From assembly GCF_000168975.1 (NCBI RefSeq), contig NZ_AAUW01000001.1:310001-374000 (forward strand): a DNA stretch of 64,000 bases. The letters are read 5' to 3'. Made by a program: the position numbers and the translations under genes. The notes below the pieces were generated by a model that worked only from the letters and a program-made list of their open reading frames with translations, was not told the origin of the DNA and ran no database searches. This DNA is from Roseibium aggregatum IAM 12614 (GTDB taxonomy: Bacteria; Pseudomonadota; Alphaproteobacteria; Rhizobiales; Stappiaceae). Below, in pieces: positions 1,588-16,918 of the stretch (positions are counted from its first letter, which is position 1; every line of letters starts with the position of its first letter).

Positions 1588-2904
1588 TTACCGGTCGACC
1601 GGAAGGCCGCTCGGGACAGTGGCAGGAATGCCGAAGGGCGGAGACGTGACAGACTGCGAGCCGGTCAGGCTTTTCAGGAAAGCCACCAGATCGGCAATCT
1701 CCGCATTCGAAAGGGAGAGAGGTTCAATATCCCTGAAACGGGCCTGGCGCGCCATCTCACGAGCGTCATTCCAGACCACGAAATCGATGGCTTCCAGCCA
1801 CGGTGCCTGAGGAAGGGCTGCGGTTTCCGGCTTCCAGGCCTTCAGCATCCCGTCGGGGTCGAGGTGATGCCGGATGATCCCTTCCAGTGTGGGATAAGCG
1901 CCATTGTGCCCGTAAGGGGCCGTCAGCTCGACGTTCCGCAGCATCGGGGTCCGGAACCCGTAGGCATCTTCAAGGCGGTCGGTCTCGCCCATCACCCCGA
2001 CATCGCGGACCATCGGATCAAAGCTGCGCGTGCGGCCCGGGCCGAAGGGCGGAAGGCCCAGGGCGTGGAACTTCTGATCGCTGAGCAGTTTGCCCGAGTG
2101 ACACGAGGAGCATCCGGCTTTGCCGTAGAAAAGTTCAAGACCGCGCTTCTGGGCCGGACCGAGAGCGGTTTCATCTCCGCCGAGATACGCGTCGAATGGG
2201 CTGTCGAAGCTCTGCCATTCGACCGCCTGAAAAGCCGCCAGCGCGTTGGCGATTTCAACGATCGTGACCTCTTCGGGGGCGTCGATATGGTCGAACGCCT
2301 CAACAAACAGGCGGCCATATTCGGGAATGATGCGGACCCGTTTGGCCAGGATCGGCCAGGCATTGTCGATGCGGTCGTAAATGGCTCCCGCGACTTCGTT
2401 TTCCTTCGGGTTGCCAGCCATCTCGAATTGGGCCGTTACCGGAAAGACGGCCTGGGCTGCGAGCAGGGAATTGAAACCCGTGGGCAGCCATTCTTCGGCC
2501 GGCGAATTGAAGCCGTTCTCGAAGGTGTCGGCAATCGACAGACGGCCGTCGTGAAACAAGACGTGAAGCTCTTTTGCCCCCAAATTCCAGAGACCTGGAG
2601 CGTTTCGCGGAATCCGTTTCTTAATGCGGCTGTCGCCGGTTCCGGCACTCCGCTGCAGCCCCAGTCCTTCGCCACCTTCGCCGATGCCCAGCGACAACCG
2701 GTCACCTGTGCCAAGGCTCGGATGGTGGCATGTGGCGCAGGCAATATTCCTGTTGCCTGAGAGGATCTTGTCGTAAAAAAGCAACTGGCCGAGCGCTGCC
2801 TGCTTGCTGTCGAAGGCGATGAAGTCGTCCTGTTTCAGAGGCGGTGGCAGTTCGGCGGAAACAGCCGGTGCCGACAGGCCGAACATCAGAGGGAGCAATC
2901 GCAA
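1588..2904 (-). CDS. Di-haem cytochrome c peroxidase / MauG-like protein
   Basis: Predicted periplasmic enzyme with two c-type haem sites: CATCH near residues 56-60 and CSSCH about 200 residues later. Family features include LFYDKILSGN before the first haem and RTPMLRNVELTAPYGHNG after the second. This is the CCP_MauG family, which reduces peroxide or oxidises protein substrates. The frame is open up to 3345, but that extension runs antisense through the Sel1 gene. I chose the TTG at 2904 because it gives a compact signal peptide (RLLPLMFGLSAPAVSA, then ELPPP). The ATG at 2886 would leave too short a signal and no positive charge. The start is only 3 nt from the divergent Sel1 start. It precedes yeiH in the same direction. 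Confidence 0.85.
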   Translation of the reverse strand: MRLLPLMFGLSAPAVSAELPPPLKQDDFIAFDSKQAALGQLLFYDKILSGNRNIACATCHHPSLGTGDRLSLGIGEGGEGLGLQRSAGTGDSRIKKRIPRNAPGLWNLGAKELHVLFHDGRLSIADTFENGFNSPAEEWLPTGFNSLLAAQAVFPVTAQFEMAGNPKENEVAGAIYDRIDNAWPILAKRVRIIPEYGRLFVEAFDHIDAPEEVTIVEIANALAAFQAVEWQSFDSPFDAYLGGDETALGPAQKRGLELFYGKAGCSSCHSGKLLSDQKFHALGLPPFGPGRTRSFDPMVRDVGVMGETDRLEDAYGFRTPMLRNVELTAPYGHNGAYPTLEGIIRHHLDPDGMLKAWKPETAALPQAPWLEAIDFVVWNDAREMARQARFRDIEPLSLSNAEIADLVAFLKSLTGSQSVTSPPFGIPATVPSGLPVDR

Positions 2905-2907
2905 GAT

Positions 2908-3390
2908 ATGAAGACCACGCTGACCGCCGCTCTTCTCGCCTTTGGGCTTTGCACGGCTTCTGCTCAGGCCGAAATCGAAGCCGCGCGCGACCTGATGGAG
3001 GCCAATCGATACGAAGAAGCGATGAAGGAACTCTGGCCCGCCGCCCGCTCTGGCAACGCGGATGCGGAAGAACTGATCGGTGTGATGTACGCCATGGGGC
3101 TGGGTGTCGAGCGCGACGACCAGCGGGCGTTCGAGTGGTATCTCAGAAGCGCGATGAAGGGCCATCCCGGAGCCCAGTCCGGCGTCGGCTGGTACTATGA
3201 GGTCGGCCGGGGCATGCCCGCGCCGGATCTCGTACGGGCTTACATGTGGTACACGCTCTCTGCCATCGGGGGAGACCCCGACGCCGCTATCTCTCTGGAA
3301 GAGGTGGTCAAGAAGATGACCAAAGACGAGATTGAGAAGGCGCATATCCTGGTCGGCGATTACAAGGTCTGGATGTATCCGTTCAATTGA
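2908..3390 (+). CDS. Secreted Sel1-repeat protein
   Basis: A 160-residue protein with a clear signal peptide (MKTTLTAALLAFGLCTASAQA) followed by Sel1-like TPR units: NADAEELIGVMYAMGLGVERD, GAQSGVGWYYEVGRGMPAPD and AYMWYTLSAIGGDPDA. Sel1 repeats form helical scaffolds for protein-protein contacts, so a periplasmic adaptor role is likely, but the partner is unknown. A GGGAG sequence lies at 2891-2895, rather far (12 nt) from the ATG. The gene diverges from the MauG-like gene with essentially no intergenic space, so its promoter must lie within that gene's 5' end. Confidence 0.8.
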   Translation: MKTTLTAALLAFGLCTASAQAEIEAARDLMEANRYEEAMKELWPAARSGNADAEELIGVMYAMGLGVERDDQRAFEWYLRSAMKGHPGAQSGVGWYYEVGRGMPAPDLVRAYMWYTLSAIGGDPDAAISLEEVVKKMTKDEIEKAHILVGDYKVWMYPFN

Positions 3391-3485: not shown

Positions 3486-4544
3486 TCAATTCAGATCGGC
3501 AGAGCGATCGGCGTTGATATCGGCTTCGGCCGCAGCCACGGCTTCTTCCAGAGCGCCGAAGATCTCGCCGCCACGTCCGACATTACCCTTGAACCAGTCA
3601 TAGACCGGCGCGGCAGCTTCCTTGAAGGCTGCCTTTTCTTCAGGGGTCGGAACGTAGAGATCGCCGCCGCCGGCCACGAAGTCCTCATAGGCCTTGATCG
3701 ACTTGCGCTTCGGCGAGGCGAAGGTTGCCTGCTGAAGGGCATAGAAACCATCTACCACGACACGGCGAAGGTCTTCAGGCATCGACATGAACTTCTCGTT
3801 GTTCATCCACCACAGGGCGCCCATGTAGGCGTGCCCGTCCAGGGTGACATACTGAAGACCGGCATCGGGGAACTTCATGCCCATGATGTCGGTGATGCCG
3901 TTCTTGGAACCTTCGACAACGCCGGTCTGCAGCGAGGTGAACAGTTCCGGCCACGGGATCGGCGTCGGAGCAGCACCAAGCGCCTTGACCAGTTCCTGCG
4001 GCAGGTCGGCCACCACGGTGCGAATCTTCAGGCCCTTCAGGTCTTCCGGCTTGGCGACGCGGTGCTTGGTGTTGGCGAAGTTGCGCCAGCCGCCGGTGTT
4101 GCCAATGGTCATCAGGCGGATGGTGTCGCCGGAATCTTCCAGCGCCATGGTGCGCATGGTGCGGGTGAATTCGCCGGACAGGACATGCTCGGCAATCCGG
4201 TCGTCGCTCATCATGTAGGGCAGGTCGAGAACCTGCACATACGGGAAGATGCCCGCTGCACCGCCGGAGGTGGAGATGTAGATGTCGATGGCACCGTCGG
4301 AAATGCCCTGAAGGCATTCGGCGCCGTTGGAGCAAAGCTGCGTGCCGATGAACAGTTCGACCTCGATGGCACCGTTGGAGGCGGCTTCAACGAAGTTCTT
4401 GAAAACGACGAGGCCGTCGTAGTCTTCGTCGTTTTCGTTCGAATTGGCGGTTGCGCGCAGCGTGTAGTCCGCGGCAAGCGCGCTCAGCGACGATCCGGCT
4501 AGCATCGCCGCGACGGTGAGCGTTTTCAGTGCAGTTTTGAGCAT
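3486..4544 (-). CDS. dctP: TRAP transporter solute-binding protein (DctP family)
   Basis: Periplasmic solute receptor of a tripartite ATP-independent transporter, 352 residues. The ATG at 4544 is preceded by GGGAGGA at good spacing and yields the signal peptide MLKTALKTLTVAAMLAGSSLSALAA. An in-frame start upstream at 4583 has no such support. Family features are AIEVELFIGTQLCSNGAECL, GLKIRTVVADLPQELVKALGA (the Arg in KIRT normally contacts the ligand carboxylate or other acid) and PWPELFTSLQTGVVEG. It lies 28 nt downstream of dctM. Its position beside a flavin monooxygenase, flavin reductase and aldo-keto reductase suggests an acidic, perhaps sulfonated, ligand; the substrate is inferred only. 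Confidence 0.92.
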   Translation of the reverse strand: MLKTALKTLTVAAMLAGSSLSALAADYTLRATANSNENDEDYDGLVVFKNFVEAASNGAIEVELFIGTQLCSNGAECLQGISDGAIDIYISTSGGAAGIFPYVQVLDLPYMMSDDRIAEHVLSGEFTRTMRTMALEDSGDTIRLMTIGNTGGWRNFANTKHRVAKPEDLKGLKIRTVVADLPQELVKALGAAPTPIPWPELFTSLQTGVVEGSKNGITDIMGMKFPDAGLQYVTLDGHAYMGALWWMNNEKFMSMPEDLRRVVVDGFYALQQATFASPKRKSIKAYEDFVAGGGDLYVPTPEEKAAFKEAAAPVYDWFKGNVGRGGEIFGALEEAVAAAEADINADRSADLN

Positions 4545-4572
4545 TAGGTTCCTCCCTTTGAAAAGCTCAGGA

Positions 4573-6066
4573 TCAGTTGGCAAATCCGGTCAGACGCGGG
4601 ATCGTCATCGAAAGTGCCGGAATGTAGGTGATCAGGAAGATCACCGCGATTTCCACCGCCAGAAACGGCAGGATGGCCTTGGCAATGGTTTCAACCCGTT
4701 CTCTTGAAACCGAAGCCGCAACGAAGAGCACCAGACCCATTGGCGGTGTCGCCAGACCGATGGTCAGGTTGACGCTCATGATGATGGCGAAATGGATCGG
4801 ATCGACGCCCAGGTTGGCGAAGATCGGTCCGAGGATCGGCCCGAGAATGATGATCGCCGGGCCTGCGTCCAGGAACATGCCGACCACGAACAGCAGCAGG
4901 TTGATCAGGAACAGCAGGATCAGCGGGTTTTCCGACAGGGTCAGGACGAACTCCGCCATGATTTCGGGCGCATGGCTGAGGCTGACGACGGTCTTGAAGG
5001 CCATCGCGGCACCGACCAGCAGCAGCACCACTGCAGAGGTTATGCCGGCCCTGTTCAGGACACCCGGGATCTCGGACACCTTGATGGAGTGCAGAACGAA
5101 GAAACCGATAACGAGCGCATAGGCAACCGCGACCGCTGCCGCTTCCGTCGGCGTGAAGACACCCAGCAGAATACCGCCGAGAATGATGATCGGCGTTTGC
5201 AACGGAGCGACGGCCTTCTTGCACACGACCCGGAAATCCGGCGAGACGGCACTTCTGAGGCTCCAGAGAAGCATGTGGGAGACCACCAGGAAGACCGCGA
5301 ACAGGATGAAGGAAGTCGTGGTGGAAAGAGGCGCGAACCCGGTCAGGCCTATCAAGAGATCCGCGAGTACCGTGAACAGGGCGGCCAGGTTTGCCCGCAG
5401 TACGATGAAGGAGAACCAGTATTCCACCGGTGCCAGGGTTTGGCCGGGGCTGACGATCCTCTGCGCTTTTGGCAGATCGTATTTGTTGGCCATGAACTTG
5501 ACCATGAGCATCAGGCCGATACCGACCATGACGCCGGGGACGATACCTGCCAGGAACAGCGCGGCAACACTCTCTCCCATCACGTAGGCATAGATGATCA
5601 TGATGCCCGACGGCGGAATGATCGGGCCGATGACGGAACTTGCCGCGGTGATTGCAGCAGCAAAACGCCTTGTGTAGCCCTGCTTCTCCATGGCCGGGAT
5701 CAGCATCGACCCGAGGGCGGAGGTGTCGGCAACGGCAGACCCGGAGAGACCGGCAAACAGCATCGACGACAGGATGTTCACATGGGCAAGGCCGCCGCGC
5801 AGATGTCCCATCAATGCCTGGCTGAATTCAACCAGCCGCATGGTGATGCCGCCCTTGTTCATCAGCTCGCCTGCGAGCATGAAGAACGGAATCGCCATCA
5901 GAGGAAAACTGTCCATGCCGTTGTAGACGTTGCGGTAAAGCAGCGTGATGTCTTTTTCCTGCCCGTTCAGCCAAAGCAGCAGGCCAGGGGCCGCCAGAAG
6001 GCCGAAGAAGACCGGCAGTCCGATCAGCAGGAAAACGAGGAAGACGGGAAGGAACCAGATCAGCAT
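4573..6066 (-). CDS. dctM: TRAP transporter large permease (DctM)
   Basis: Large membrane subunit, 497 residues with about 12 or more hydrophobic segments. Family signatures include the opening MLIWFLPVFLVFLLIGLPVFF, SMLFAGLSGSAVADTSALGS, SSVIGPIIPPSGIMIIYAY and GLATPPMGLVLFV. It forms the ion-coupled substrate channel together with DctQ. The start overlaps the dctQ stop by one base (TGATG), indicating translational coupling. Confidence 0.94.
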   Translation of the reverse strand: MLIWFLPVFLVFLLIGLPVFFGLLAAPGLLLWLNGQEKDITLLYRNVYNGMDSFPLMAIPFFMLAGELMNKGGITMRLVEFSQALMGHLRGGLAHVNILSSMLFAGLSGSAVADTSALGSMLIPAMEKQGYTRRFAAAITAASSVIGPIIPPSGIMIIYAYVMGESVAALFLAGIVPGVMVGIGLMLMVKFMANKYDLPKAQRIVSPGQTLAPVEYWFSFIVLRANLAALFTVLADLLIGLTGFAPLSTTTSFILFAVFLVVSHMLLWSLRSAVSPDFRVVCKKAVAPLQTPIIILGGILLGVFTPTEAAAVAVAYALVIGFFVLHSIKVSEIPGVLNRAGITSAVVLLLVGAAMAFKTVVSLSHAPEIMAEFVLTLSENPLILLFLINLLLFVVGMFLDAGPAIIILGPILGPIFANLGVDPIHFAIIMSVNLTIGLATPPMGLVLFVAASVSRERVETIAKAILPFLAVEIAVIFLITYIPALSMTIPRLTGFAN

Positions 6067-6656
6067 CAGTCAGCTCCTGCCATGTCGGGGTCGGGAATGA
6101 CCGGCATGCGGTCGACACCACCAAAACTGGCGATGATATTGCGCAGGATCAGTTCGATGTTGACGAGCGTCAGCAGGAAGACCCCGACGAGGATGGACGC
6201 CATCATCCAGCTTCGCGGCACACGGATCCATTCGCTGAAGGAGAGATTGGCCGGTACGTAGAGGGAGGCGGTCGCGAAACGGCCACCGAAGCCTGTGACC
6301 TCGGAAAATCCGATCTTCAGGGCAACGACGAGCACCAGGAGCGAAATCAGCAGAAGGAGCAGCGAAATGACGCTGCCCACGATGCGAGGCAGGGAATGGG
6401 TGAACATGTCGATGGCAACGAAACCGCCTCTTCGGAACGCGGTTGGCGCCATCAGTCCGGTCATCCAGAGCATACAGAAACGGGCTGCTTCGTCCGGCCA
6501 GGGCAGGGCATTATTGAAGACATAGCGGAACACGACCTGAACCAGGATCGCGATCACCATCAGAGCCACGGCAACGATGCCGATGCCCCGGCCAATTCGC
6601 AACAGCAGCGAATTGACGAAGTCGAGCGGTGCAAGAACCGCCAGCAAAATGCCCAT
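6066..6656 (-). CDS. dctQ: TRAP transporter small permease (DctQ)
   Basis: Small four-helix membrane subunit, 196 residues. The ATG at 6656 is preceded by GGGAGGAG. The reading frame is open about 65 residues further upstream, but that stretch is hydrophilic and unlike the family. The LVQVVFRYVFNNALPWPDEAARF segment near residues 40-60 is the hallmark of DctQ proteins (R-Y and W-x-E-E/D-x-A-R). It is first of the three TRAP genes and lies 160 nt after the flavin reductase gene. Confidence 0.93.
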   Translation of the reverse strand: MGILLAVLAPLDFVNSLLLRIGRGIGIVAVALMVIAILVQVVFRYVFNNALPWPDEAARFCMLWMTGLMAPTAFRRGGFVAIDMFTHSLPRIVGSVISLLLLLISLLVLVVALKIGFSEVTGFGGRFATASLYVPANLSFSEWIRVPRSWMMASILVGVFLLTLVNIELILRNIIASFGGVDRMPVIPDPDMAGAD

Positions 6657-6757
6657 CCGGGCTCCTCCCTGGACCAACTGGTTACCATGTGCGCGAACAT
6701 GAGAACCGGAAAGCTGATCTTGTTTAAAGTAGCGAAGCGGTCTTCTGCGATCTCCTG

Positions 6758-6793
6758 AAACAGAAGGCCCGTCACGTTCCTCCACGACGGGCC
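6758..6793 (-). terminator. Intercistronic hairpin between flavin reductase and dctQ
   Basis: GGCCCGTC (6766-6773) pairs with GACGGGCC (6786-6793). On the minus strand the stem is followed by TTCTGTTT. This could terminate or attenuate the enzyme operon before the transporter genes, or protect the upstream mRNA and set different expression of enzymes and importer. Confidence 0.5.
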
Positions 6794-6816
6794 GGTTGCC
6801 GCCCCGTTTCCCGCCC

Positions 6817-7335
6817 TTACCTTGGAGCGATTTGTCCGAGTTTGCCTGCATAAAATGTCAGGGCTTCTCCCGAGCGCATCTCGGCCTGCAGAACCTGGCC
6901 GAGAACGATCAGATGATCGCCGCCCTCATAGGCGGTGAACCGCTTGCACTCGAAACGGGCGAGGCAGTTCTCGATCAGGGGCACACCGTTGCCGTCGATC
7001 GTGTAGGTGAGCTGATCGAAGGCATGGGCGTTGCGCACGAAACCGTTGCAGACTTCGGCCTGTTCGTGGCTCAAGACGTGAATGGCGTAATGCTCGGCCG
7101 TTTCGAAGTAGCGGAACCTGCGCGATCCCTTGTCCGGCATCCACAGGACCAGCGGCGGTTCCAGGGAGACGGACGAAAAACTGTTTGCGGTAATGCCGAC
7201 AGGGCCGTCGGCCGATCCGGTTGTCACCACGGTGACACCGGTGGCAAACCGGCCGAATGCATCGCGTAACAGGCGAGTGTTGTCGGCGTCCGGTTCGAAG
7301 GTCACGGTATGATTGGCATTCTGCATGGTCATCAT
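6817..7335 (-). CDS. smoA: Flavin reductase (HpaC/SmoA-like), supplier of FMNH2
   Basis: NAD(P)H:flavin oxidoreductase domain protein of 172 residues. Family features are LRDAFGRFATGVTVVTT, PVGITANSFSSVSLEPPLV and the GGDHLIVLGQV end. Such proteins are the reductase half of two-component flavin monooxygenases. It overlaps the upstream aldo-keto reductase gene by 4 bp (ATGA), and that gene overlaps the monooxygenase by one base. The three are therefore one tightly coupled unit, matching the SmoA-SmoB-SmoC set of sulfoquinovose monooxygenase pathways. The gene symbol is by analogy of fold and context. Confidence 0.75.
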   Translation of the reverse strand: MMTMQNANHTVTFEPDADNTRLLRDAFGRFATGVTVVTTGSADGPVGITANSFSSVSLEPPLVLWMPDKGSRRFRYFETAEHYAIHVLSHEQAEVCNGFVRNAHAFDQLTYTIDGNGVPLIENCLARFECKRFTAYEGGDHLIVLGQVLQAEMRSGEALTFYAGKLGQIAPR

Positions 7336-8222
7336 GGCACCTCTGTTCCAAGCGCCGCCTCGTAAAGGCGGTACCAGGTTTCACGATCCAGGCTGACTTT
7401 CAGCGCATCGGAGATCTTGGCGATGCGCTCCAGATTGTTCGTGCCCATGACCGGTAACAGCTGTGCCGGATGAGCCAGCAGGAACGCAACCGCGACTGCG
7501 GACCGGTCGACACCGGCCTGCGCGGCGATGTCATCCATTACGGCGCCCAGCTTTCCGCTTTCGGAAATCAGCGACCCGCCGCCGAGGGGCGACCACGCCA
7601 TCAGCTTGGTGCCAAGGCGTTGGTGAAAGGCCAGATCGCCATTGGTGAAGGGAGAGATTTCCTTCAGCGAGATCTCGATCTGGTTGGTGACAAGCCGGTT
7701 CGACATGGCCGACTGCAGCAGTTCCCAGTCCCAGGGGCGGAAGTTGGAGACGCCGACGTTGCGCACCTTGCCGCTCTTGACCAGGTCGTCGAGCGCGGTC
7801 CCGGTCTCGTGATGGTCCATCAGCGGATCCGGACGATGGATCAGCAGCAGATCAATGGTCTCGATGCCCATATCTTGGAGAGACATCTCGACCGATTTTT
7901 CGATATGGGCCCGGGAGGTGTCGTAATGTTTCACCTTGGCATCGGTATACCGCCCGGCCGGCGCGACGATGTCGCATTTGGTGACGATTTCCATCTGGCC
8001 GCGCAGGGACGGATTGGCCTTCAGCGCACCTCCCAATACAGCTTCCGCCGTGTATCCACCGTAGATGTCTGCCTGGTCGAACGTGGTTATGCCCTGGTCG
8101 AGACAGGTCTGGATTTTCCGCTCCACATGAGCGGGCGACGTATCGCTGTCGTCGCCGATGCGCCACATGCCATAGATCAGGCGGGAGAATTCAAGAGTGT
8201 CGGAAAGTTTCACGCGATCCAT
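7332..8222 (-). CDS. smoB: Aldo-keto reductase, YdhF/SmoB-like (probable 6-oxo-glucose reductase)
   Basis: A 296-residue AKR-superfamily barrel. The catalytic tetrad is visible as Asp49, Tyr54 (DQADIYGG), Lys82 (VTKC) and His129 (LLLIHRPDP). NADPH-binding features such as GVSNFRPWD and the C-terminal MGTNNLERI are present. The YGMWRIGDD opening and the ATNQIEIS-type segment are of the YdhF subgroup, which includes SmoB, the enzyme that reduces 6-oxo-glucose to glucose after desulfonation of sulfoquinovose. The gene lies between the monooxygenase and flavin reductase genes with overlapping stop/start codons. Family is certain; substrate is inferred from context. Confidence 0.75.
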   Translation of the reverse strand: MDRVKLSDTLEFSRLIYGMWRIGDDSDTSPAHVERKIQTCLDQGITTFDQADIYGGYTAEAVLGGALKANPSLRGQMEIVTKCDIVAPAGRYTDAKVKHYDTSRAHIEKSVEMSLQDMGIETIDLLLIHRPDPLMDHHETGTALDDLVKSGKVRNVGVSNFRPWDWELLQSAMSNRLVTNQIEISLKEISPFTNGDLAFHQRLGTKLMAWSPLGGGSLISESGKLGAVMDDIAAQAGVDRSAVAVAFLLAHPAQLLPVMGTNNLERIAKISDALKVSLDRETWYRLYEAALGTEVP

Positions 8223-9376
8223 TAGCGGCGCACTCCTTTGCCGAGCGGCGTTGCCGGGGTTTCAGCCGGGACACGGCCATAGGCGTGCGGCAGGGAACAG
8301 GTCTTCAGGTTGGACAGAACCCGCGATCCGAAATGCTTGGCTTCTTCCAGATGCGGATAGCCGGAGAAGATGAAGGCGCGGATACCCATCTTCTGATAGG
8401 CCTCGATCTTGGACATCACCTGATCGGTTGAGCCGACCAGCGCTGCCCCGCAGCCGGATCTTGCCCGGCCGACACCTGTCCACAGGTTCGGTTCGATGTA
8501 GCCGAATTCATCGGCAATCTCGCGGTTCTTGGCCTGATGACTGACCCCAAGAGACCTGGCGTCGAGAGCCCGCTCGCGGATGGCCGTTCCCTGGGTGTCA
8601 TCAAGTTTGGAGACGATGTAGTCCGCGTATTCCTGCGCTTCCTTCTCCGTGTCGCGCACGATCATGTGCACACGCAGGCCGTAGTCGAGGGTGCGGTCGT
8701 ATTTTTCGGCAACCGCGTTGACCGCCTTCATGCGGCCTTCCAGCTCCTCAACCTTTTCCGGCCACATCAGATAGACATCGCAGTGCTGGCCACACAGGTC
8801 CAGCGCATCGGGGGAATAGCCGCCGAAATAGAGCAGGGGACCACCGGTCTGATAGGGACGCACCGGATCCGTGGTCAGGCCTTTGAAGTTGTAGATCTGG
8901 CCTTCGTAGTTGATTTCGTCCTGGGTCCAGGCCTGCTTGAGGATTTCCACCACTTCCCGCGAGCGCTGGTAGCGGTAGCTGCTGTCGGCCTGCTCGCCCG
9001 GAAAGTCGGACGAGATGATGTTGACCGTCAACCGGCCTTCCAGCATGTGGTCCAGCGTGGCAATGGTCCGTGCCAGCATGATCGGCTGCATCTCGCCGCA
9101 GCGGACGGCCGCAAGCAGGTTGATCTTGTCTGTGATCGGCGCGCAGCCGGCCACGAAGGACAATGTATCCTGGCCGACCTGATAGGACGATGGGCACAGG
9201 ATGTTGCGGAAGCCCTGCTGCTCGGCAGTCTTTACGATGGAAGAGCAATGCTCCCAGGAGGAGCGCAGGTGGCCTTCGGGTACGCCCAGAAACTGGTAGT
9301 CGTCGGAACACAATGCGGCGAACCAGGATACCTCCGCTGCATCGAGATCCGGTGACGTGACTGGGATTACGGTCAT
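8222..9376 (-). CDS. smoC: LLM-class FMNH2-dependent monooxygenase (SsuD/SmoC-like sulfonate desulfonase)
   Basis: Luciferase-like TIM-barrel monooxygenase of about 384 residues, close to alkanesulfonate monooxygenase SsuD. Visible features are QVGQDTLSFVAGCAPIT, ARTIATLDHMLEGRLTVNIISSD, GPLLYFGGYSPDALDL and the C-terminal GSTDQVMSKIEAYQKMG. The ATG at 9376 has GGGAGG seven bases upstream; an in-frame codon at 9397 lacks one. SsuD/SmoC enzymes use reduced FMN and oxygen to cleave C-S bonds, releasing sulfite. Together with the linked reductase and aldo-keto reductase, the most specific reading is sulfoquinovose monooxygenase. An alkanesulfonate or another sulfosugar as substrate remains possible. 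Confidence 0.75.
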   Translation of the reverse strand: MTVIPVTSPDLDAAEVSWFAALCSDDYQFLGVPEGHLRSSWEHCSSIVKTAEQQGFRNILCPSSYQVGQDTLSFVAGCAPITDKINLLAAVRCGEMQPIMLARTIATLDHMLEGRLTVNIISSDFPGEQADSSYRYQRSREVVEILKQAWTQDEINYEGQIYNFKGLTTDPVRPYQTGGPLLYFGGYSPDALDLCGQHCDVYLMWPEKVEELEGRMKAVNAVAEKYDRTLDYGLRVHMIVRDTEKEAQEYADYIVSKLDDTQGTAIRERALDARSLGVSHQAKNREIADEFGYIEPNLWTGVGRARSGCGAALVGSTDQVMSKIEAYQKMGIRAFIFSGYPHLEEAKHFGSRVLSNLKTCSLPHAYGRVPAETPATPLGKGVRR

Positions 9377-9566
9377 GAAGTGCCTCCCTTGGACCATCTT
9401 TTCGAATAGCGAAACACGAGATCGCCGAATGAGGCGCGGTTGAGGTTTCGCTATTTTCGTTTGTTTTCGAATGGCTTCATTTAGCGTTCGATTTCTTCTT
9501 GCATATCACCCGGTTTGATGTAAATCAATAGTGTATCAATTTTGAAAACGAGACCCTCGAACCACC
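9377..9566. promoter_or_regulatory. Divergent control region of the sulfonate cluster
   Basis: This 190-bp spacer separates smoC (minus) and gntR (plus). An 11-bp perfect inverted repeat, AATAGCGAAAC (9405-9415) and GTTTCGCTATT (9445-9455), lies just upstream of smoC. A second palindrome, TTGAT-GTAA-ATCAA, is at 9515-9528. A candidate minus-strand promoter reads TTGATT, 17 bp, TATGCA (9528 down to 9500). The second palindrome overlaps its -35, and the first repeat lies in the predicted leader. Either could be the GntR operator. Confidence 0.5.
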
Positions 9567-10277
9567 ATGCCAACCGCCTCGCAATCCTCGACCGCGCTGC
9601 CGTTATACGTGCAGATAAGCGAGCTTTTGATCAGGGATATTGCGGCTGGACGGCTGATCGACGGTGAACGCTTGCCGCCGGAACGGGAGATGGCGGAGGA
9701 GCTCGGCATCTCCATCGGCACCCTGCGCAAGGCGCTTGCCGACCTTACGCAAAAAGGCTTACTCGAGCGGATCCAGGGGTCGGGAAACTACATACGCCAG
9801 GGCGGCACGCATGAAAGCGTCTACGCCATGTTCCGCCTGGAGCTTCTCACGGGCGGTGGTTTGCCGAGGGCAGACATTCTTGACGTGCAGCGCATGGTCA
9901 AGCCTGACGACCTGCCGCTCTTCGGTACCAGCGCGGAAGGCACCCGCATCCGGCGTTTGAGGTTTCTCAACGATGTGATGATCGCGGTGGAGGAAATCTG
10001 GCTGGACGGGGACGCCGGCTTCGTCCGCCGCGAACTCCTGTCCGATTCTCTCTACCGCTTTTACCAGAAACACCTGGGGTTCTGGATCGTGCGTGCGGAA
10101 GACCGGGTCACCATCGGCGCGCTGCCGGACTGGACACCCGAGATCTTTCAGAAGACGGCGGGAACACTCACAGGGTTTATTGAACGGTTCAGTTGGGCGG
10201 ATCGGCCCAAGCCGGTCGAATATTCGCGAACCTGGTTCGATACGGACCGGGCGCATTACGTGCAGCGTTTGAAATAG
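9567..10277 (+). CDS. GntR/HutC-family transcriptional regulator with UTRA domain
   Basis: A 236-residue regulator. The N-terminal winged helix is typical of GntR: PLYVQISELLIRDIAAGRL, LPPEREMAEELGISIGTLRKAL and LERIQGSGNYI, residues about 12-75. The remainder looks like a UTRA effector domain, with RIRRLRFLNDVMIAVEEIWLD and the final EYSRTWFDTDRAHYV. HutC-type proteins bind a small-molecule effector, often a sugar phosphate or organic acid, and usually repress an adjacent operon. It diverges from smoC and precedes the Gfo/Idh/MocA gene by 35 nt, so it probably controls both arms. Confidence 0.88.
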   Translation: MPTASQSSTALPLYVQISELLIRDIAAGRLIDGERLPPEREMAEELGISIGTLRKALADLTQKGLLERIQGSGNYIRQGGTHESVYAMFRLELLTGGGLPRADILDVQRMVKPDDLPLFGTSAEGTRIRRLRFLNDVMIAVEEIWLDGDAGFVRRELLSDSLYRFYQKHLGFWIVRAEDRVTIGALPDWTPEIFQKTAGTLTGFIERFSWADRPKPVEYSRTWFDTDRAHYVQRLK

Positions 10278-10312
10278 GTGGACAGGGAATGCCACCGAGC
10301 ATGGAGGACTGA

Positions 10313-11437
10313 ATGCCTGCAAGGGTAAGATATGGCGTCATTGGCTGCGGAATGATGGGGCAGGAGCACCTGCGCAACATTGCGCTGCTGCCGGACACCG
10401 AAGTTGCAGTGATCTTCGAGCCGGACGCCGGAATGGCGGAAGAGGCGGCAAGATTTGCGCCGGGAGCGCGGTTTGCCGGTTCCATTTCGGAGTTGCTGGA
10501 CGTTGAAGAGCTCGACTGCATCCTGATTGCCAGCCCGAACCACTGCCACGTGCCGCAGATGGAAGAAATCCGCCGCAAGCGACCGCTGCCGATTCTCGTG
10601 GAAAAGCCGCTCTTCACCGATCCGAAGGACGTTGCCGAGCTGGAGGCTTTCAAGGCGTCCTATCCTGCGCCTGTGTGGGTGGCGATGGAATATCGCTACA
10701 TGCCACCGATCGCAGCGCTGATTGAACAGGCGGAAACAGCCACCGGCGGCATCAAGATGCTGACCATTCGCGAGCACCGCTTTCCCTTCCTCGACAAGGT
10801 AGGTGCCTGGAACCGGTTCAACCGGTATTCGGGTGGGACATTCGTAGAGAAATGCTGCCATTTCTTCGACCTCATGCGGCTGATCATGAAATGCGAACCC
10901 GTCCGCGTGATGGCCTCCGCCGGCCAGGATGCGAACCACAAGGACGAGATCTACAACGGCGAGCAGCCGGATATCCTCGATAATGGCTATGTGATTGTCG
11001 ACTTTGAAAACGGTGCCCGGGCCATGCTCGAACTCTGCATGTTCGCCGAAGGCGCCCGATATCAGGAAGAGGTTTCGGCCGTCGGACCGGAAGGCAAGAT
11101 CGAAGCCTTCGTGCCGGGCCCCGGCCGCTTCTGGCCCGAACACCTCGGCGAGCCGCCAGTGCCCCAGCTTGTCGTGTCGCCGCGGCATCCCAAGGGGCCG
11201 CGGCAGATCGACATTCCGGTCGATCCGCTGCTCCTCCACGCAGGCGACCATAACGGCTCAACCTTCTACCAGCACGAAGGTTTCGTTGCAGTGGTGCGCG
11301 GTGAAAAGCCGGCACCTGAAGTGACGCTGGAAGATGGATGGCGGGCCGTCGAAATGGGGCTGGCGGCGCAGCAGTCCGCCCGCACAGGGCAGGCCGTCAC
11401 GCTGCGGGCTCAGACGCTTTCTTCCGTCGCCTGCTAA
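10313..11437 (+). CDS. Gfo/Idh/MocA-family NAD-dependent protein (candidate GH188-type sulfoquinovosidase)
   Basis: A 374-residue protein with an N-terminal Rossmann fold (YGVIGCGMMGQEHLRN), the ASPNHCH segment and the VEKPLF motif typical of Gfo/Idh/MocA oxidoreductases. The C-terminal half carries GGTFVEKCCHFFDLMR and a conserved-looking HAGDHNGST. A GGAGG site sits nine bases before the ATG. Members of this fold include sugar dehydrogenases and NAD-dependent glycosidases; GH188 sulfoquinovosidases belong to it. No GH31 sulfoquinovosidase is seen here, so this gene could release sulfoquinovose from its glyceryl glycoside. That role is inference; a plain sugar dehydrogenase is the alternative. 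Confidence 0.7.
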   Translation: MPARVRYGVIGCGMMGQEHLRNIALLPDTEVAVIFEPDAGMAEEAARFAPGARFAGSISELLDVEELDCILIASPNHCHVPQMEEIRRKRPLPILVEKPLFTDPKDVAELEAFKASYPAPVWVAMEYRYMPPIAALIEQAETATGGIKMLTIREHRFPFLDKVGAWNRFNRYSGGTFVEKCCHFFDLMRLIMKCEPVRVMASAGQDANHKDEIYNGEQPDILDNGYVIVDFENGARAMLELCMFAEGARYQEEVSAVGPEGKIEAFVPGPGRFWPEHLGEPPVPQLVVSPRHPKGPRQIDIPVDPLLLHAGDHNGSTFYQHEGFVAVVRGEKPAPEVTLEDGWRAVEMGLAAQQSARTGQAVTLRAQTLSSVAC

Positions 11438-12164: not shown

Positions 12165-14879
12165 ATGCGTAAGTCACTTTCCGTTCTTCTGTCTTCAACG
12201 CTGATTTTGCAAACAGTTTTCATCAATGGCGTGCTTGCCGCGCCAGCCCTGACGACCGCCAACGTCAATTTCAGGCAAGGACCGGGAACGAACTTCGGTT
12301 CACTGGGAACCGTGCCCTCCGGTACGCAGGTTGAAATGGAAAACTGCGACGACAGCGGCGCGTGGTGCTCGATCAGCTACAACGGCCAGAACGGCTTCGT
12401 CAGCGGTCAGTATCTGCAGCTCAGCGAACCGGAACAGACGACAGGCTGGCCCCGGTCCTTCCAGACCGATGCCGGAGCGACACTGGTGCTCTACCAGCCG
12501 CAGTTTACCGAGTGGGACAACTTCAAGACGCTGAAGGCGCTCGTGGCTGCGGAATACATCAAGGACAAGGATACCAAGCCGGTGTTCGGTGTGATCGGCG
12601 TCAGCGGCGTGACCGTGGCCGACCCCGACAAGAGCGAAGTGGACATCAACCAGATCCAGGTGACGGAGCTGGATTTTTCAGCTCTGGACCGGCAGTCCCT
12701 TACGGATCTGTCCCTCCAGGTCGGCAAGATTCTGCCGACCGGAACTATCACCGTGAAGGAAGACCGGATTACCGCCGGTCTTGCCGAATACAAGCGCATG
12801 GACGATGTCCAGGGCCTGAATTCGGAAGCACCGCCGATTTTCATCTCCACCGAGCCGTCCATTCTCGTCCAGACCGAGGGCGCTCCCATTTTTGCGCCGG
12901 TCAAGGGCGACCAGGGGCTCAGCTTCGTGGTCAACAGCAACTGGGACATTCTGAAAATCGACGAGAGCGGCGAGCTTTATCTTCGCGACGAAAAGTCCTG
13001 GATGAAAACCACGGATGTGTCGGCCGGTTGGCAAGCGGTCGACAAGTTGCCGGATCTGATCGGCTCTCTGCCCGATGATGACAACTGGAAGGAAACCAGG
13101 GAAGCGATCCCAGGGGAGCCCTTTGCCGACAACGCGCCGCCGAAGGTGATCTATTCCGACAAACCGGCCGAGATGATCGTCTTTGACGGTGAGCCTGCGC
13201 TGGAGCCGGTGGAAGGCACCGATCTGGAATGGGCCTCCAACACCGACAGCGATGTCTTCTTCCTGAAATCCACGTCCACCTGGTACATTCTCGTGTCAGG
13301 ACGCTGGTTCAAGTCTGACTCGCTTCAAGGGCCATGGACCTTTACGACGCCAGACATGCCGTCCGATTTCCAGAACCTGCCGGAAGACGCGCCTTACTAT
13401 TCCGTCCGCTCATCCATTCCGGGCACTTCGGAGGCCTCTCAGGCCCGGTTGAAGGCCAGCATTCCGACCACCGCCCGCGTCGAGGTCGGTTCCGTCAGCG
13501 CGGATGTTTCCTACGCGGGGGACCCGGAATTTGAAAAGATCGACGGCACGTCGATGTCCTACGCGGTCAATACCAGCGACCAGGTGATCCAAGTCGGCGC
13601 GAAATACTACGTGCTGCAGGACGGTGTCTGGTTCGTCGGCGACAGCCCACAGGGACCCTTTGCCGTCGCAACGGCCGTACCGGACGAGATCTACACCATT
13701 CCGCCGTCTTCCCCGGTCTACAACACCACCTATGTGCGCATCTATGACAGCGAGCCGGGAGCGGTCTGGTACGGTTATACGATGGGCTATCTGGCCGGGT
13801 TCCTGTCCTGGGGCGTCTTCGTTTATGGCACCGGATATTATTACCGGCCCTGGTACCGCCCGGGTCTGCGTCCGATCTATTTTCCGCGCCCGGTGACCTA
13901 TGGCATCGGCGCCTTCTATAACCCGGTCCGGGGCACCTTCGGACGCTATGGTTACGCCTATGGCCCGCTGCGCGGCATTGCCGGAGGCGGCATCTACAAT
14001 CCTCGTACCGGCGGTTACATCCGCGGTGCCGCTATCAGCGGGCCGCGCGGCAGTGCCGGCTTCATCAGCGCCTACAATCCGCGCACCGGCAACCGGGTCG
14101 TGGTTGGCGGAGCAAGGGGCATTTACGGTTCCTGGGGCGGCAAGGTGGTGAGCGGGCCGGAATGGTCGCGCACGCGTGATCTTCAGGCGGGCGCCGTTCA
14201 GCGCTGGAAAAAGGACGGCAATCTCGGCCAGGTGGCAAACCTTGACCGCCGGGGCGATGTTTTTGCCGGCCGGGATGGAAGCGTTTATCGCCGCGATGGC
14301 GAAAAATGGCAGAAGTTCGAAGGCGGCCGCTGGGGAGAGGTAGCTGCTCCCTCCCGCGACGCAATCCAGGACCGTGTCGGGGATATTGGTGCCGGACTGG
14401 CAGGTGGCGCAATCGGCGCGGGCGCAGGAGCCGCCCTTGCCAACAGGCCGTTGGGCGACAAGGTTCAGAACCGTCCCAACATTCAGCGCCCGACCAACCT
14501 GCCTGCAGGCCAGCGTCCGAATGTTGAACGCCCCAACGTCCAACGCCCGAACGTGCAAAGGCCAAATGCGCAACGACCGGCGGAACGTCCCAATGTACAG
14601 AAGCCGAATGTGCAGCGTCCAAACGTGCAGCGGCCCAGTGTCCAGCGGCCGAACGTCCAGAAGCCGAATGTGCAACGCCCGGCGACCCGCCCTGCCACAC
14701 GTCCGGCGGCGCGTCCCCAGGCACCGGCGCATCTGAGCCGTGACCAGCGGGCCAGAACGGCCGGCAACCGGCAGGTCAATCGTCAGCGCAATGTCCAGCA
14801 ATCACGCCCGCAGGCGCGGGTACAGCGTCCCAGCGGCGGCGGTAGTGTGCGCAGGGGAGGCGGCGGGCGCCGCCGTTGA
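12165..14879 (+). CDS. Large secreted SH3b protein with Gly/Tyr-rich region and RPNVQ-repeat tail
   Basis: A 904-residue exported protein. It has a signal peptide (residues about 1-25) and an SH3b domain at about 28-85 (NVNFRQGPGTNFGSLG). Next come three related units with a W/Y-x-L-x-G-x-W-F-x-S-x-Q-G-P-W/F pattern, seen best as WYILVSGRWF and YYVLQDGVWF. A hydrophobic/Tyr-rich stretch (YGYTMGYLAGFLSWG, YYYRPWYRPG) follows, then a Gly-rich region and an Arg/Pro/Asn/Gln-rich tail of RPNVQ-type repeats, ending in a Gly/Arg run. The middle resembles proteins loosely annotated as carbohydrate-binding family V/XII in proteobacteria. An envelope or cell-wall-associated role is likely; activity is unknown. 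GGGAGG precedes the ATG. Confidence 0.7.
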   Translation: MRKSLSVLLSSTLILQTVFINGVLAAPALTTANVNFRQGPGTNFGSLGTVPSGTQVEMENCDDSGAWCSISYNGQNGFVSGQYLQLSEPEQTTGWPRSFQTDAGATLVLYQPQFTEWDNFKTLKALVAAEYIKDKDTKPVFGVIGVSGVTVADPDKSEVDINQIQVTELDFSALDRQSLTDLSLQVGKILPTGTITVKEDRITAGLAEYKRMDDVQGLNSEAPPIFISTEPSILVQTEGAPIFAPVKGDQGLSFVVNSNWDILKIDESGELYLRDEKSWMKTTDVSAGWQAVDKLPDLIGSLPDDDNWKETREAIPGEPFADNAPPKVIYSDKPAEMIVFDGEPALEPVEGTDLEWASNTDSDVFFLKSTSTWYILVSGRWFKSDSLQGPWTFTTPDMPSDFQNLPEDAPYYSVRSSIPGTSEASQARLKASIPTTARVEVGSVSADVSYAGDPEFEKIDGTSMSYAVNTSDQVIQVGAKYYVLQDGVWFVGDSPQGPFAVATAVPDEIYTIPPSSPVYNTTYVRIYDSEPGAVWYGYTMGYLAGFLSWGVFVYGTGYYYRPWYRPGLRPIYFPRPVTYGIGAFYNPVRGTFGRYGYAYGPLRGIAGGGIYNPRTGGYIRGAAISGPRGSAGFISAYNPRTGNRVVVGGARGIYGSWGGKVVSGPEWSRTRDLQAGAVQRWKKDGNLGQVANLDRRGDVFAGRDGSVYRRDGEKWQKFEGGRWGEVAAPSRDAIQDRVGDIGAGLAGGAIGAGAGAALANRPLGDKVQNRPNIQRPTNLPAGQRPNVERPNVQRPNVQRPNAQRPAERPNVQKPNVQRPNVQRPSVQRPNVQKPNVQRPATRPATRPAARPQAPAHLSRDQRARTAGNRQVNRQRNVQQSRPQARVQRPSGGGSVRRGGGGRRR
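14514..14680 (+). repeat. Tandem RPNVQ/KPNVQ pentapeptide-coding repeat
   Basis: Within the C-terminal part of the large SH3b protein, 15-bp units encode RPNVE, RPNVQ, RPNVQ, RPNAQ, RPAE, RPNVQ, KPNVQ, RPNVQ, RPSVQ, RPNVQ, KPNVQ. Third positions vary between units, so the amino-acid pattern is kept while the DNA drifts. The tail is basic and proline-rich, suggesting an extended, possibly polyanion-binding segment. Confidence 0.85.
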
Positions 14880-14885
14880 TGCTGG

Positions 14886-15347
14886 CTAAATCGGAAGATC
14901 GCGGGCATCCGCGATCGATTCCATGGTCATGTACGACGTGACCGTATCCAGGTCGACCTTCTCGATCAGGCGCTGATACACCCGGTCGAAGGCATTCATG
15001 TCTTCGGCCACCACTTTCAGCATGTAGTCGTAGTCGCCGGCAATCCGGTAGAAATCGATCACATTCGCAATGGCCACGACTTCACCCCGGAACCTTTCCA
15101 GCCACTCCTTGGAATGGTGCCGGGTCCGGATCATCACGAAGACGGTGAGGTTCAGCCCAAGCCGGGCCGGATCCAGACGGACCGTGTGCCCTTCGATCAA
15201 ACCGCTGTCATAGAGCGTTTTCAACCGACGCCAGCACGCGTTCTGGGAAAGACCAACCTTGTCTGCAAGGTCTCTTTGCGACAGACGGGCGTCCCGTTGA
15301 AGGGCACGTAACAGCGCACGGTCAATATGATCGAATTTTTTCTCCAT
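14886..15347 (-). CDS. Lrp/AsnC-family transcriptional regulator
   Basis: A 153-residue regulator with an N-terminal HTH (IDRALLRALQRDARLSQRDLADKVGLSQNACWRRLKTL) and a C-terminal ligand-binding RAM/AsnC domain (EVVAIANVIDFYRIAGDYDYMLKV). It diverges from the class V aminotransferase gene with about 100 bp between starts. Family members sense amino acids or related metabolites and commonly control the divergent neighbour, so regulation of the aminotransferase/amidotransferase pair is likely. Confidence 0.92.
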   Translation of the reverse strand: MEKKFDHIDRALLRALQRDARLSQRDLADKVGLSQNACWRRLKTLYDSGLIEGHTVRLDPARLGLNLTVFVMIRTRHHSKEWLERFRGEVVAIANVIDFYRIAGDYDYMLKVVAEDMNAFDRVYQRLIEKVDLDTVTSYMTMESIADARDLPI

Positions 15348-15451
15348 CTTCGATCAAATGACACAAAATATGAAACAAGACAATTGAATAAGGTGAAGAA
15401 ATCCCATTGGTAGTGGTCGTATGATCCGGAAAAGTCGTTTCGGAGCACATG

Positions 15452-16918
15452 ATGACCCACAAAACTGGTACGGCACTCGATCATTTCGTCGATGATCTGA
15501 AAGCCCCGGATCTGATCTCCCGCCTGCGGGCGGGATTGATCGGCGAGGGGACATCCATTTCCGGCCCGTTCGGTGAACGGGAGCTCATCTATGCCGACTA
15601 CGTTGCCTCCGGACGGGCCCTGCGCCAGATCGAGGAATTCGTTCTGGAAGAAATCCTGCCGGTCTACGCGAACAGCCACACGGAAGCGTCCTACTGCGGC
15701 AGTGCCATGACGCGGATGCGCGAGGCGGCACGGTCTGAAATCGCACGCATCTGCGGGGCTGATGAGGGGTATGCGACGGTCTTCTGCGGCTCTGGCGCAA
15801 CCGCGGGGCTCAACAGGCTGGTACATCTTCTTGGCGTTTCCGCTGCTGCTGAGCGCGGTGAGGAGCCGCTCGTCGTCATCGGACCCTATGAGCATCACTC
15901 CGACATTCTTCCCTGGCGGGAAAGCGGAGCCGAGGTCGTTGAGGTAGACGAAGCGGCGACGGGAGGTCCCGATCTTGCCGAATTGGAAGAGGTGCTGCGC
16001 GCCGCGGGCCCCGGCCGATTGATCGTCGGTGCGTTCTCGATGATGTCCAACGTCACCGGCATCGTCACCGACGACGAAGCGGTCACGCGTCTCTTGAAGC
16101 GCTACGGCGCTCTCAGCGTCTGGGACTGCGCCGGCTCGGGTCCTTATCTGCCGATCGACATGAAAGCCGGGACGGATGTCCAGAAGGACGCCGTCGTCGT
16201 CTCGCCGCACAAGTTCATCGGCGGGCCTGCTGCCTCCGGTGTCATGATCGTGCGCAAGGCGGCGGTCAGCAAGGCGACCCCGGTCTTTCCGGGGGGCGGT
16301 ACCGTTCGTTTCGTCTCGCCCTGGGCTCATGACTACTCCGGCAACCTTTCCGCCCGTGAGGAAGCTGGAACGCCGAACGTCATTGGCGACATCCGTGCGG
16401 CCCTGGTCTTTCTGGTCAAGGAAGCCATCGGGCAAAGGTTGATGGACGAGCGGAATGCCGCCTGGCGGGCCAGGGCGCTGGCCGTCTGGCGCGACAATCC
16501 GGCAATTGAAATTCTCGGCAATGACAACGCCCGTCACGTGCTGCCGGTGTTCTCGTTCCGGGTGCGGGATCTGGAACGCGGCGGTTATGTCCACCAGCAG
16601 CTTGTCACCCGTATGCTCTCGGACCTTTATGGCATCCAGGCCCGCGGCGGTTGCGCCTGCGCGGGGCCTTACGCCCACCGGCTGCTTGATATCGGCCCGG
16701 AACAGTCCGAAGCGCTGCGTTCCGGCATTCTTTCCGGTGAAGAACTGAAGAAACCCGGCTGGACACGGCTCAATTTTTCGGTGCTCATGACAGTAGACAA
16801 GGCGGACAGGATCATTGCCGCTGTCGAAGATCTGGCGCTGCATCCCTATCCGGCCGCGGACTATTACGCGTGCGACCAAGCCACGGCCCGGTTCAAGGCG
16901 ATGCAAGACGCCGCTTGA
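15452..16918 (+). CDS. Class V aminotransferase-fold PLP enzyme (cysteine desulfurase/EgtE-like)
   Basis: PLP-dependent enzyme of 488 residues, longer than the usual 380-420. The PLP lysine is Lys254 in SPHKFIGGP, with Asp225 in WDCAGSGPY and the VYANSHTEAS segment at residues 71-80. FCGSGATAGLNRL is the substrate/PLP-phosphate loop. GCACAGPY near residue 410 resembles the desulfurase Cys loop. Two ATGs occur in tandem at 15449 and 15452; GGAG at 15442-15445 fits the second better. It is followed 16 nt later by a class II amidotransferase gene. The reaction is unknown; desulfurase, C-S lyase or aminotransferase are all possible. Confidence 0.78.
   Translation: MTHKTGTALDHFVDDLKAPDLISRLRAGLIGEGTSISGPFGERELIYADYVASGRALRQIEEFVLEEILPVYANSHTEASYCGSAMTRMREAARSEIARICGADEGYATVFCGSGATAGLNRLVHLLGVSAAAERGEEPLVVIGPYEHHSDILPWRESGAEVVEVDEAATGGPDLAELEEVLRAAGPGRLIVGAFSMMSNVTGIVTDDEAVTRLLKRYGALSVWDCAGSGPYLPIDMKAGTDVQKDAVVVSPHKFIGGPAASGVMIVRKAAVSKATPVFPGGGTVRFVSPWAHDYSGNLSAREEAGTPNVIGDIRAALVFLVKEAIGQRLMDERNAAWRARALAVWRDNPAIEILGNDNARHVLPVFSFRVRDLERGGYVHQQLVTRMLSDLYGIQARGGCACAGPYAHRLLDIGPEQSEALRSGILSGEELKKPGWTRLNFSVLMTVDKADRIIAAVEDLALHPYPAADYYACDQATARFKAMQDAA

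Follow-up and report, generated by a model that had tools for sequence, protein, structure and literature searches.

The stretch analysed here (the window) comprises 64,000 nt of the 6.56-Mb genome of Roseibium aggregatum IAM 12614 (NZ_AAUW01000001.1, positions 310,001-374,000) and carries an eight-gene cluster predicted to serve the catabolism of the sulfosugar sulfoquinovose (SQ). Each of the eight genes exceeds the Pfam cut-off of its own family. On the minus strand, smoC, smoB, smoA, dctQ, dctM, and dctP follow one another from 9376 down to 3486, and the plus strand carries, divergently from smoC, a GntR/UTRA regulator gene (9567-10277; PF00392, PF07702) and a gene of the Gfo/Idh/MocA fold (10313-11437) for SqgA, a predicted NAD-dependent sulfoquinovosidase of glycoside hydrolase family GH188. 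We consider the cluster very probably to be a catabolic operon of the SQ monooxygenase (sulfo-SMO) type, with a tripartite ATP-independent periplasmic (TRAP) transporter as the importer of sulfoquinovosylglycerol (SQGro) and/or SQ.

Gene layout and the desulfonation enzymes

The minus-strand set begins with SmoC, a predicted FMNH2-dependent SQ monooxygenase (8222-9376, in an open reading frame (ORF) from 9397; PF00296, Bac_luciferase), SmoB, a predicted NAD(P)H-dependent 6-dehydroglucose reductase of the aldo-keto reductase (AKR) type (7332-8222; PF00248, Aldo_ket_red), and a SmoA-type flavin reductase (6817-7335; PF01613, Flavin_Reduct). These are followed by the small permease DctQ (196 amino acids; 6066-6656, ORF from 6851; PF04290), the large permease DctM (4573-6066; PF06808, with TIGR00786 above its cut-off), and the substrate-binding protein DctP, the proposed SQ/SQGro receptor (3486-4544, ORF from 4583; PF03480), so that all three subunits of a DctP-type TRAP transporter are present. 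The ATG of SmoC at 9376 coincides with the start of the solved orthologues, and the signal peptide of DctP begins at 4544. A first-pass annotation had described the three enzymes together with DctPQM, which Pfam confirmed within the range it gave, and the overlapping junctions that it reported were found at SmoC/SmoB (TAATG), SmoB/SmoA (ATGA), and DctQ/DctM (TGATG); 28 bp separate DctM from DctP and 160 bp SmoA from DctQ. The plus-strand genes at 9567-10277 and 10313-11437 also belong to the cluster. No ATP-binding cassette (ABC) importer was found in the cluster, where dctQMP occupies the slot.

In the PDB sequence search, SmoC matched 7olf (695.7 bits) and 7oh2 (694.2 bits) over 383 residues with a single gap residue. 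The title of 7oh2 refers to the oxidative desulfurization of sulfoquinovose and that of 7olf is identical as far as 'of sul'; a Foldseek search with the SmoC model (predicted local distance difference test (pLDDT) 58.1) was used solely for reading these titles, as the sequence search had already ranked both entries first. SmoB scored 431 bits against 7bby/7bbz, which we take to be SmoB structures (the PDB file labels them aryl-alcohol dehydrogenase), vs 212 bits against YdhF. For SmoA, the top-scoring NCBIfam model was FerA (196 bits, under its cut-off of 260) and every equivalog cut-off was missed. These matches make SmoC orthologous to the SQ monooxygenases of known structure and place SmoA in the flavin reductase family expected for the sulfo-SMO partner. 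SqgA matched the PDB entries 8zn9 (553 bits), 8qc2 (373), and 8qc3 (368), the next-best family reaching 56 bits; 8QC2 is described as a GH188 sulfoquinovosidase structure (PMC11465081). A GH31 query from a neighbour cluster (L115) gave a single match in the genome, 29% identical, and the sulfoquinovosidase of the cluster is, by its best matches, GH188 and not GH31. The sulfo-SMO enzyme set named in the first-pass annotation thus stands for SmoC and SmoB by score and for SmoA by family, although the GH188 sulfoquinovosidase had gone unrecognised there. On these sequence comparisons, the assignment of the cluster to the sulfo-SMO pathway is nearly certain.

By eye, SqgA carries no signal peptide and opens directly with the NAD-binding fold; because of this, the glycoside SQGro is probably imported into the cell intact.

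Conservation of the importer genes

A scan of genome contigs with SmoC yielded the best 80 loci (83-95% identical), which are not a census and belong to Roseibium, Roseobacter-type genera, and metagenome-assembled genomes named Rhodobacteraceae; 73 of them have 6 kb of sequence downstream. By SmoC, the nearest named relatives among the matches listed were Roseibium/Labrenzia. GntR was present in 80/80 of these loci, SmoB in 79, and SmoA and SqgA in 77 each. DctP (at least 60% identity) was found in 58/80 (56/73 among those with 6 kb downstream), and in every one of the 58 its start lies 3.3-3.7 kb after SmoC, a recurrence of spacing because of which the linkage of SmoC and DctP is not due to chance. 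The same was seen in a family survey of 87 genomes (SmoC at E <= 1e-150, DctP at E <= 1e-120), where 45 carried SmoC, 44 carried DctP, and 41 carried both, the two lying within 6.5 kb in 40 of the 41 (Fisher p 1e-16 for co-occurrence, a statistic that ignores kinship). Among the three DctP-only genomes of the family, G058 and G082 have a hybrid SQ cluster of the sulfo-Embden-Meyerhof-Parnas (sulfo-EMP) type there, and in G061 the contig starts inside the TRAP genes. TRAP is the common importer form in the loci examined (58/80; 40/45 in the family) and no oddity of this genome.

An ABC binding protein replaces DctP in 7/73 loci. In five of these seven loci, the dctQMP slot holds the complete set of four ABC genes as open frames, and in L069 three of them; L058 seems to have retained just a remnant. 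By Pfam, the ABC set of L029 consists of an SBP_bac_1 protein, two permeases, and a MalK-type ATPase, and the other ABC loci were matched to it; the loci with an ABC importer in place of TRAP are L026, L028, L029, L042, L062, and L069. L076 has another set, with two ABC permeases and an alpha-amylase. The L029-type ABC system is possibly a third means of SQ import. PDB matches of the L029 binding protein were only weak and none was named SmoF, and the best matches to this binding protein in the genome of the window were partial (26% and 31%). On a quick SmoC tree, the distribution of TRAP and ABC needs at least five changes, of which well-supported branches force one.

The importer is not confined to sulfo-SMO clusters. 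In three partly overlapping searches for DctP (397, 385, and 398 genomes from the order, class, and phylum), relatives of at least 69% identity were found in 35 genomes, including that of the window: 21 beside SmoC (6 by coordinates alone), nine beside a hybrid sulfo-EMP set, and one beside a set like the SQ dioxygenase (sulfo-SDO) pathway, with three having no SQ genes in reach and one lying on a contig that is too short for a judgement. SQ pathway genes adjoin DctP in 31 of the 34 readable genomes, and the three genomes without local SQ genes carry them elsewhere (GH188 beside isomerase and aldolase, away from TRAP, in G115 and G285; SmoC (85%) and a GH188-like gene (48%), again away from TRAP, in G770). 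The sulfo-EMP sets comprise a SqvD-type (Fucose_iso_C) isomerase, a PfkB kinase, and a DeoC/LacD aldolase, and their neighbours include genes for a glycosidase (GH188 or GH31), a mutarotase, and an aldehyde dehydrogenase; the families were assigned by Pfam in L113, L115, and partly in L121 and L123, to which the other sulfo-EMP loci were matched. We rejected the label sulfo-EMP2, which uses PF00365 and PF01116 enzymes, in favour of hybrid sulfo-EMP since these sets have PfkB and DeoC/LacD. The sulfo-SDO-like set (L166, in a genome outside the class) consists of a TauD-family dioxygenase, GH188 (58%), GntR, a SmoB-like AKR, and dctQMP. Of the 104 rows of a quick DctP tree, 95 fall in one supported group (SMO 81, EMP 9, SDO 1, away from SQ genes 3, unlabelled 1), and the three pathway labels need at least three changes over the whole tree. 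SQ or its glycosides are the sole substrate common to SMO, sulfo-EMP, and SDO-type clusters, and we infer that the TRAP transporter carries SQ/SQGro because its close DctP relatives adjoin all three pathway types.

One genome of the same genus (G053) has dctQMP twice on a single 6.17-Mb contig, the copies being 99.97% identical with one mismatch in 2,938 bp. The match begins about 20 bp within dctQ and ends shortly after dctP, and dctQMP is the only match between the two regions (L185 and L189; limit E 1e-10). One copy lies in an SMO operon and the other beside sulfo-EMP and sulfolactate-lyase-type genes, and we take the duplication to be the probable result of a recent event in which an SQ import cassette was copied, or converted, from one SQ cluster to the other. 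Plasmids carry the genes as well: DctP was found in 11 plasmid records, of which nine regions were read, and the full eight-gene set was present in seven of the eight regions with DctP of at least 68% (Ruegeria sp. TM1040 and AD91A, Paracoccus seriniphilus, Roseivivax sp. THAF40, Salipiger sp. CCB-MM3, Roseicitreum antarcticum, and Rhizobium sp. SL42). A plasmid of Qingshengfaniella alkalisoli (L173) has SmoC (79%) followed directly by dctQMP, with SmoB, SmoA, and SqgA not nearby, and the DctP of a Pacificitalea plasmid (52%) has no clear SQ set beside it. The plasmid annotations are generic (e.g., luciferase-like monooxygenase (LLM) oxidoreductase, DctP); in 3/9 regions, the small permease is annotated with a C4-dicarboxylate term.

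The probable ligand of DctP and alternative readings

Against PDB sequences, DctP scored 129 bits with 4p47, 108 with 4p9k, and 106 with IseP, in which two Arg and an Asn hold the sulfonate of isethionate, according to PMC11668362. Arg167, Arg188, Trp211, and Asn228 of DctP align with Arg156, Arg177, Trp200, and Asn217 of IseP at identical spacing. In a 31-row DctP alignment, Arg167, Arg188, and Asn228 are invariant and Trp211 is at least 90% conserved; the alignment includes one unrelated row (L058, 24% identity), and the three residues are invariant even so. Together with the genomic association, this site makes the TRAP transporter a strong candidate for the SQ/SQGro importer.

Several observations weigh against this reading of the transporter. 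The predicted SQ/SQGro ligand of DctP rests on genomic association and the clamp residues. The Arg/Arg/Asn clamp binds carboxylates elsewhere and therefore indicates an anion site only, with no specificity for SQ, and the structure model of DctP (pLDDT 53.7 from the 31-row alignment) is too poor for judging the pocket. Neither the TRAP nor the L029-type ABC set is nearby in 9/73 of the best loci, where importers were not found; this DctP is lacking in 4/45 SmoC genomes of the family and in 10/20 SmoC genomes (at least 76%) of an order-wide sample. Three of the latter ten loci were read, with an ABC importer near in L130 and L131 and none in L132. The TRAP transporter is evidently not obligatory for SmoC-bearing genomes. 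Moreover, the sulfo-EMP and SDO-like sets are putative, being named from protein families and neighbours only. Among 11 loci with distant DctP (37-53%; L121-L128, L167, L168, and L179), a clear SQ set, hybrid sulfo-EMP, was found in only two (L121 and L123), L125 and L127 had weaker isomerase and GH31 matches, and seven had no clear set; as SQ sets are scarce there, the SQ link weakens outside the close clade.

Such points bear on the alternative that survives best, in which the enzymes are those of the sulfo-SMO pathway, yet the anion imported by TRAP is a different one (a carboxylate or C2/C3 sulfonate), SQ enters otherwise, and the co-location is a loose nutritional grouping. The one solved sulfonate TRAP receptor does bind the C2 compound isethionate (PMC11668362), three genomes have the TRAP genes away from SQ genes, and this TRAP is lacking in half of the SmoC genomes sampled from the order. 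An importer of another anion would nevertheless have to be shared by SMO, sulfo-EMP, and SDO-type clusters, which have only SQ or its glycoside as a common substrate; relatives put an ABC system in the very same slot; near-identical dctQMP alone is common to the two SQ clusters of G053; and the three genomes with TRAP away hold SQ genes elsewhere. We therefore regard import of another anion as unlikely and retain SQ and/or SQGro as the probable ligand. Beyond the window, we lean towards the wider view that DctPQM represents the first TRAP family to be recognised for sulfosugars, a portable SQ and/or SQGro cassette swapped among sulfo-SMO, sulfo-EMP, and sulfo-SDO clusters, which may be a main SQ entry route in marine Alphaproteobacteria and often has a periplasmic di-haem peroxidase and a Sel1 protein along with it.

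It is extremely unlikely that the monooxygenase is an ordinary SsuD/MsuD-type alkanesulfonate or methanesulfonate desulfonase for sulfur scavenging. SmoC shares their superfamily, and one of its two top PDB chains carries the molecule name 'methanesulfonate sulfonatase'. We tried and rejected SsuD as its name: the SsuD model TIGR03565 does match, but its 241.8 bits are far under the cut-off of 518.2. SmoC scored 188 bits against MsuD and 180 against E. coli SsuD, vs 694-696 for the SQ monooxygenase structures; a grouping with alkanesulfonate enzymes, which the first-pass annotation held would tell against its proposal, is not what these scores give. In addition, SmoB and GH188 partners are present, and the importer is of the TRAP type and not the Ssu ABC system.

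With the residue list of PMC10755693 mapped onto SqgA (alignment by eye, offset 13), all eight mapped SQ-contact/catalytic residues are kept (Lys107, Tyr136, Arg166, Leu170, Lys172, Glu189, His193, and His321 in ArSqgA numbering); the ninth listed residue, Glu163, was unmapped at this offset and an adjacent Glu is conserved. That the set works on another 6-sulfosugar or glycoside instead of SQ, e.g., sulfofucose, the catabolism of which occurs in a Paracoccus (PMC12421959), is hardly credible given these kept residues, the closeness of SmoC and SmoB to SQ enzymes, and the GH31-type and GH188 glycosidases that relatives of the importer also adjoin.

For the sulfo-SMO operon with TRAP import, we propose that DctP would take SQGro and/or free SQ in the periplasm, its Arg/Arg/Asn clamp gripping the sulfonate, and that DctQM would carry the substrate inward on an ion gradient. 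Cytoplasmic SqgA, using NAD+, would free SQ from the glycoside, and SmoC, with FMNH2 provided by SmoA, would split the C-S bond to give sulfite and 6-dehydroglucose, which SmoB would convert to glucose. Sulfite would probably exit by a YeiH-type exporter, and the GntR/UTRA protein would govern the divergent promoters via a conserved operator.

Regulation, sulfite exit and accompanying genes

Between smoC and gntR, a 34-base stretch at 9513-9546 (minus strand; consensus AAAATTGATACACtATTGATcTACATCAA) is conserved over the 75 smoC-gntR intergenic regions that were extractable. Of its 8-mers, the commonest is present in 69/75 of them vs a maximum of six in 50 base-shuffled controls, a contrast that kinship inflates. 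The SDO-like cluster has two similar stretches (27/34 and 24/34 bases) upstream of its TauD gene, and none above background was found in the sulfo-EMP loci tested. The stretch is a candidate operator. The putative sulfate/sulfite exporter of the YeiH family is encoded downstream, at 566-1561 on the minus strand (PF03601), and scored 133.7 bits with TIGR00698, not reaching the cut-off of 232.6. A YeiH-type gene directly follows the importer in several relatives, yet one is near in only 18/73 of the best loci; as the sulfite outlet, such an exporter is plausible.

Downstream of the TRAP genes lies a minus-strand gene for a di-haem cytochrome c peroxidase/MauG-like protein (CCP_MauG; 1588-3345, true start probably about 2880; PF03150), and beside DctP a plus-strand gene for a Sel1-repeat protein (2908-3390; PF08238) in which a signal peptide was seen by eye; both proteins are apparently periplasmic. 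Each gene was found in 47/56 TRAP-bearing SMO loci and in 0/17 non-TRAP loci of the best set. In a wider set, CCP_MauG occurred in 49/70 and Sel1 in 51/70 SMO loci, with 4/12 and 9/12 in sulfo-EMP loci; both occurred in 4/4 loci without nearby SQ genes and neither in the SDO-like locus. The two genes track TRAP rather than the enzymes. On the other side of the cluster, the window holds a plus-strand gene (12165-14879) for a 904-aa protein, which has a bacterial SH3 domain at its N-terminus and ends in a repetitive region rich in proline, and then an Lrp/AsnC regulator and a class-V aminotransferase, divergently arranged (14886-16918).

Comparison with known systems

SQ is produced at about 10 billion tons a year (PMC10755693), and the import step of marine SQ degraders is not described in the main texts examined. 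The word TRAP is not present in the main texts of PMC10755693, PMC13372026, and PMC12890257, and no literature joining TRAP transporters to SQ was found by title, abstract, or passage, although earlier naming is possible (e.g., by Liu et al., 2023, on SQ use in Roseobacter) and some papers carry both terms (PMC10507020, PMC11236759). Priority for the TRAP-SQ link is uncertain. If the link is true, the DctP clade would serve as a sequence marker for SQ users whichever pathway follows.

The sulfo-SMO operon of Agrobacterium, reportedly published in PNAS in 2022, is said to combine smoABC with the ABC importer SmoEFGH and the GH31 enzyme SmoI. The cluster of the window is like it in the SmoC and SmoB orthologues, in having a flavin reductase of the expected family, and in the predicted C-S cleavage to sulfite and glucose, and unlike it in having TRAP instead of ABC and GH188 instead of GH31. 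Among TRAP transporters, known sulfonate substrates include C3 compounds. If our reading is true, these substrates would extend from small compounds such as isethionate (PMC11668362) to hexose glycosides. DctP is like IseP in the sulfonate-holding Arg, Arg, and Asn plus Trp at equal spacing, and unlike it in that the IseP ligand is a C2 sulfonate and its host a sulfate-reducing bacterium (PMC11668362).

The first-pass annotation proposed a TRAP route for a sulfosugar as a new variant. The route itself gains a strong genomic link (58/80 best loci and three SQ pathway types); its novelty is reduced, as it is the common form in relatives and sulfo-SMO clusters with GH188 in Roseobacters had already been published (Kaur et al., 2023; PMC10755693), sulfo-SMO and GH188 in this group being covered by PMC13372026 and PMC12890257 as well. 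The cluster of the window belongs with those of Kaur et al., sharing with them the SMO enzymes, GH188, and a marine alphaproteobacterial host; the main text of PMC10755693 is without the words transporter, TRAP, and tripartite. PMC12890257 describes clusters of the hybrid sulfo-EMP type as well as the sulfo-SDO (SqoD/SquF) pathway, and the cluster of the window is akin to these systems in that close relatives of its TRAP transporter adjoin such sets, and unlike them in degrading SQ, as predicted, by SmoCBA, where other enzymes act in those pathways.

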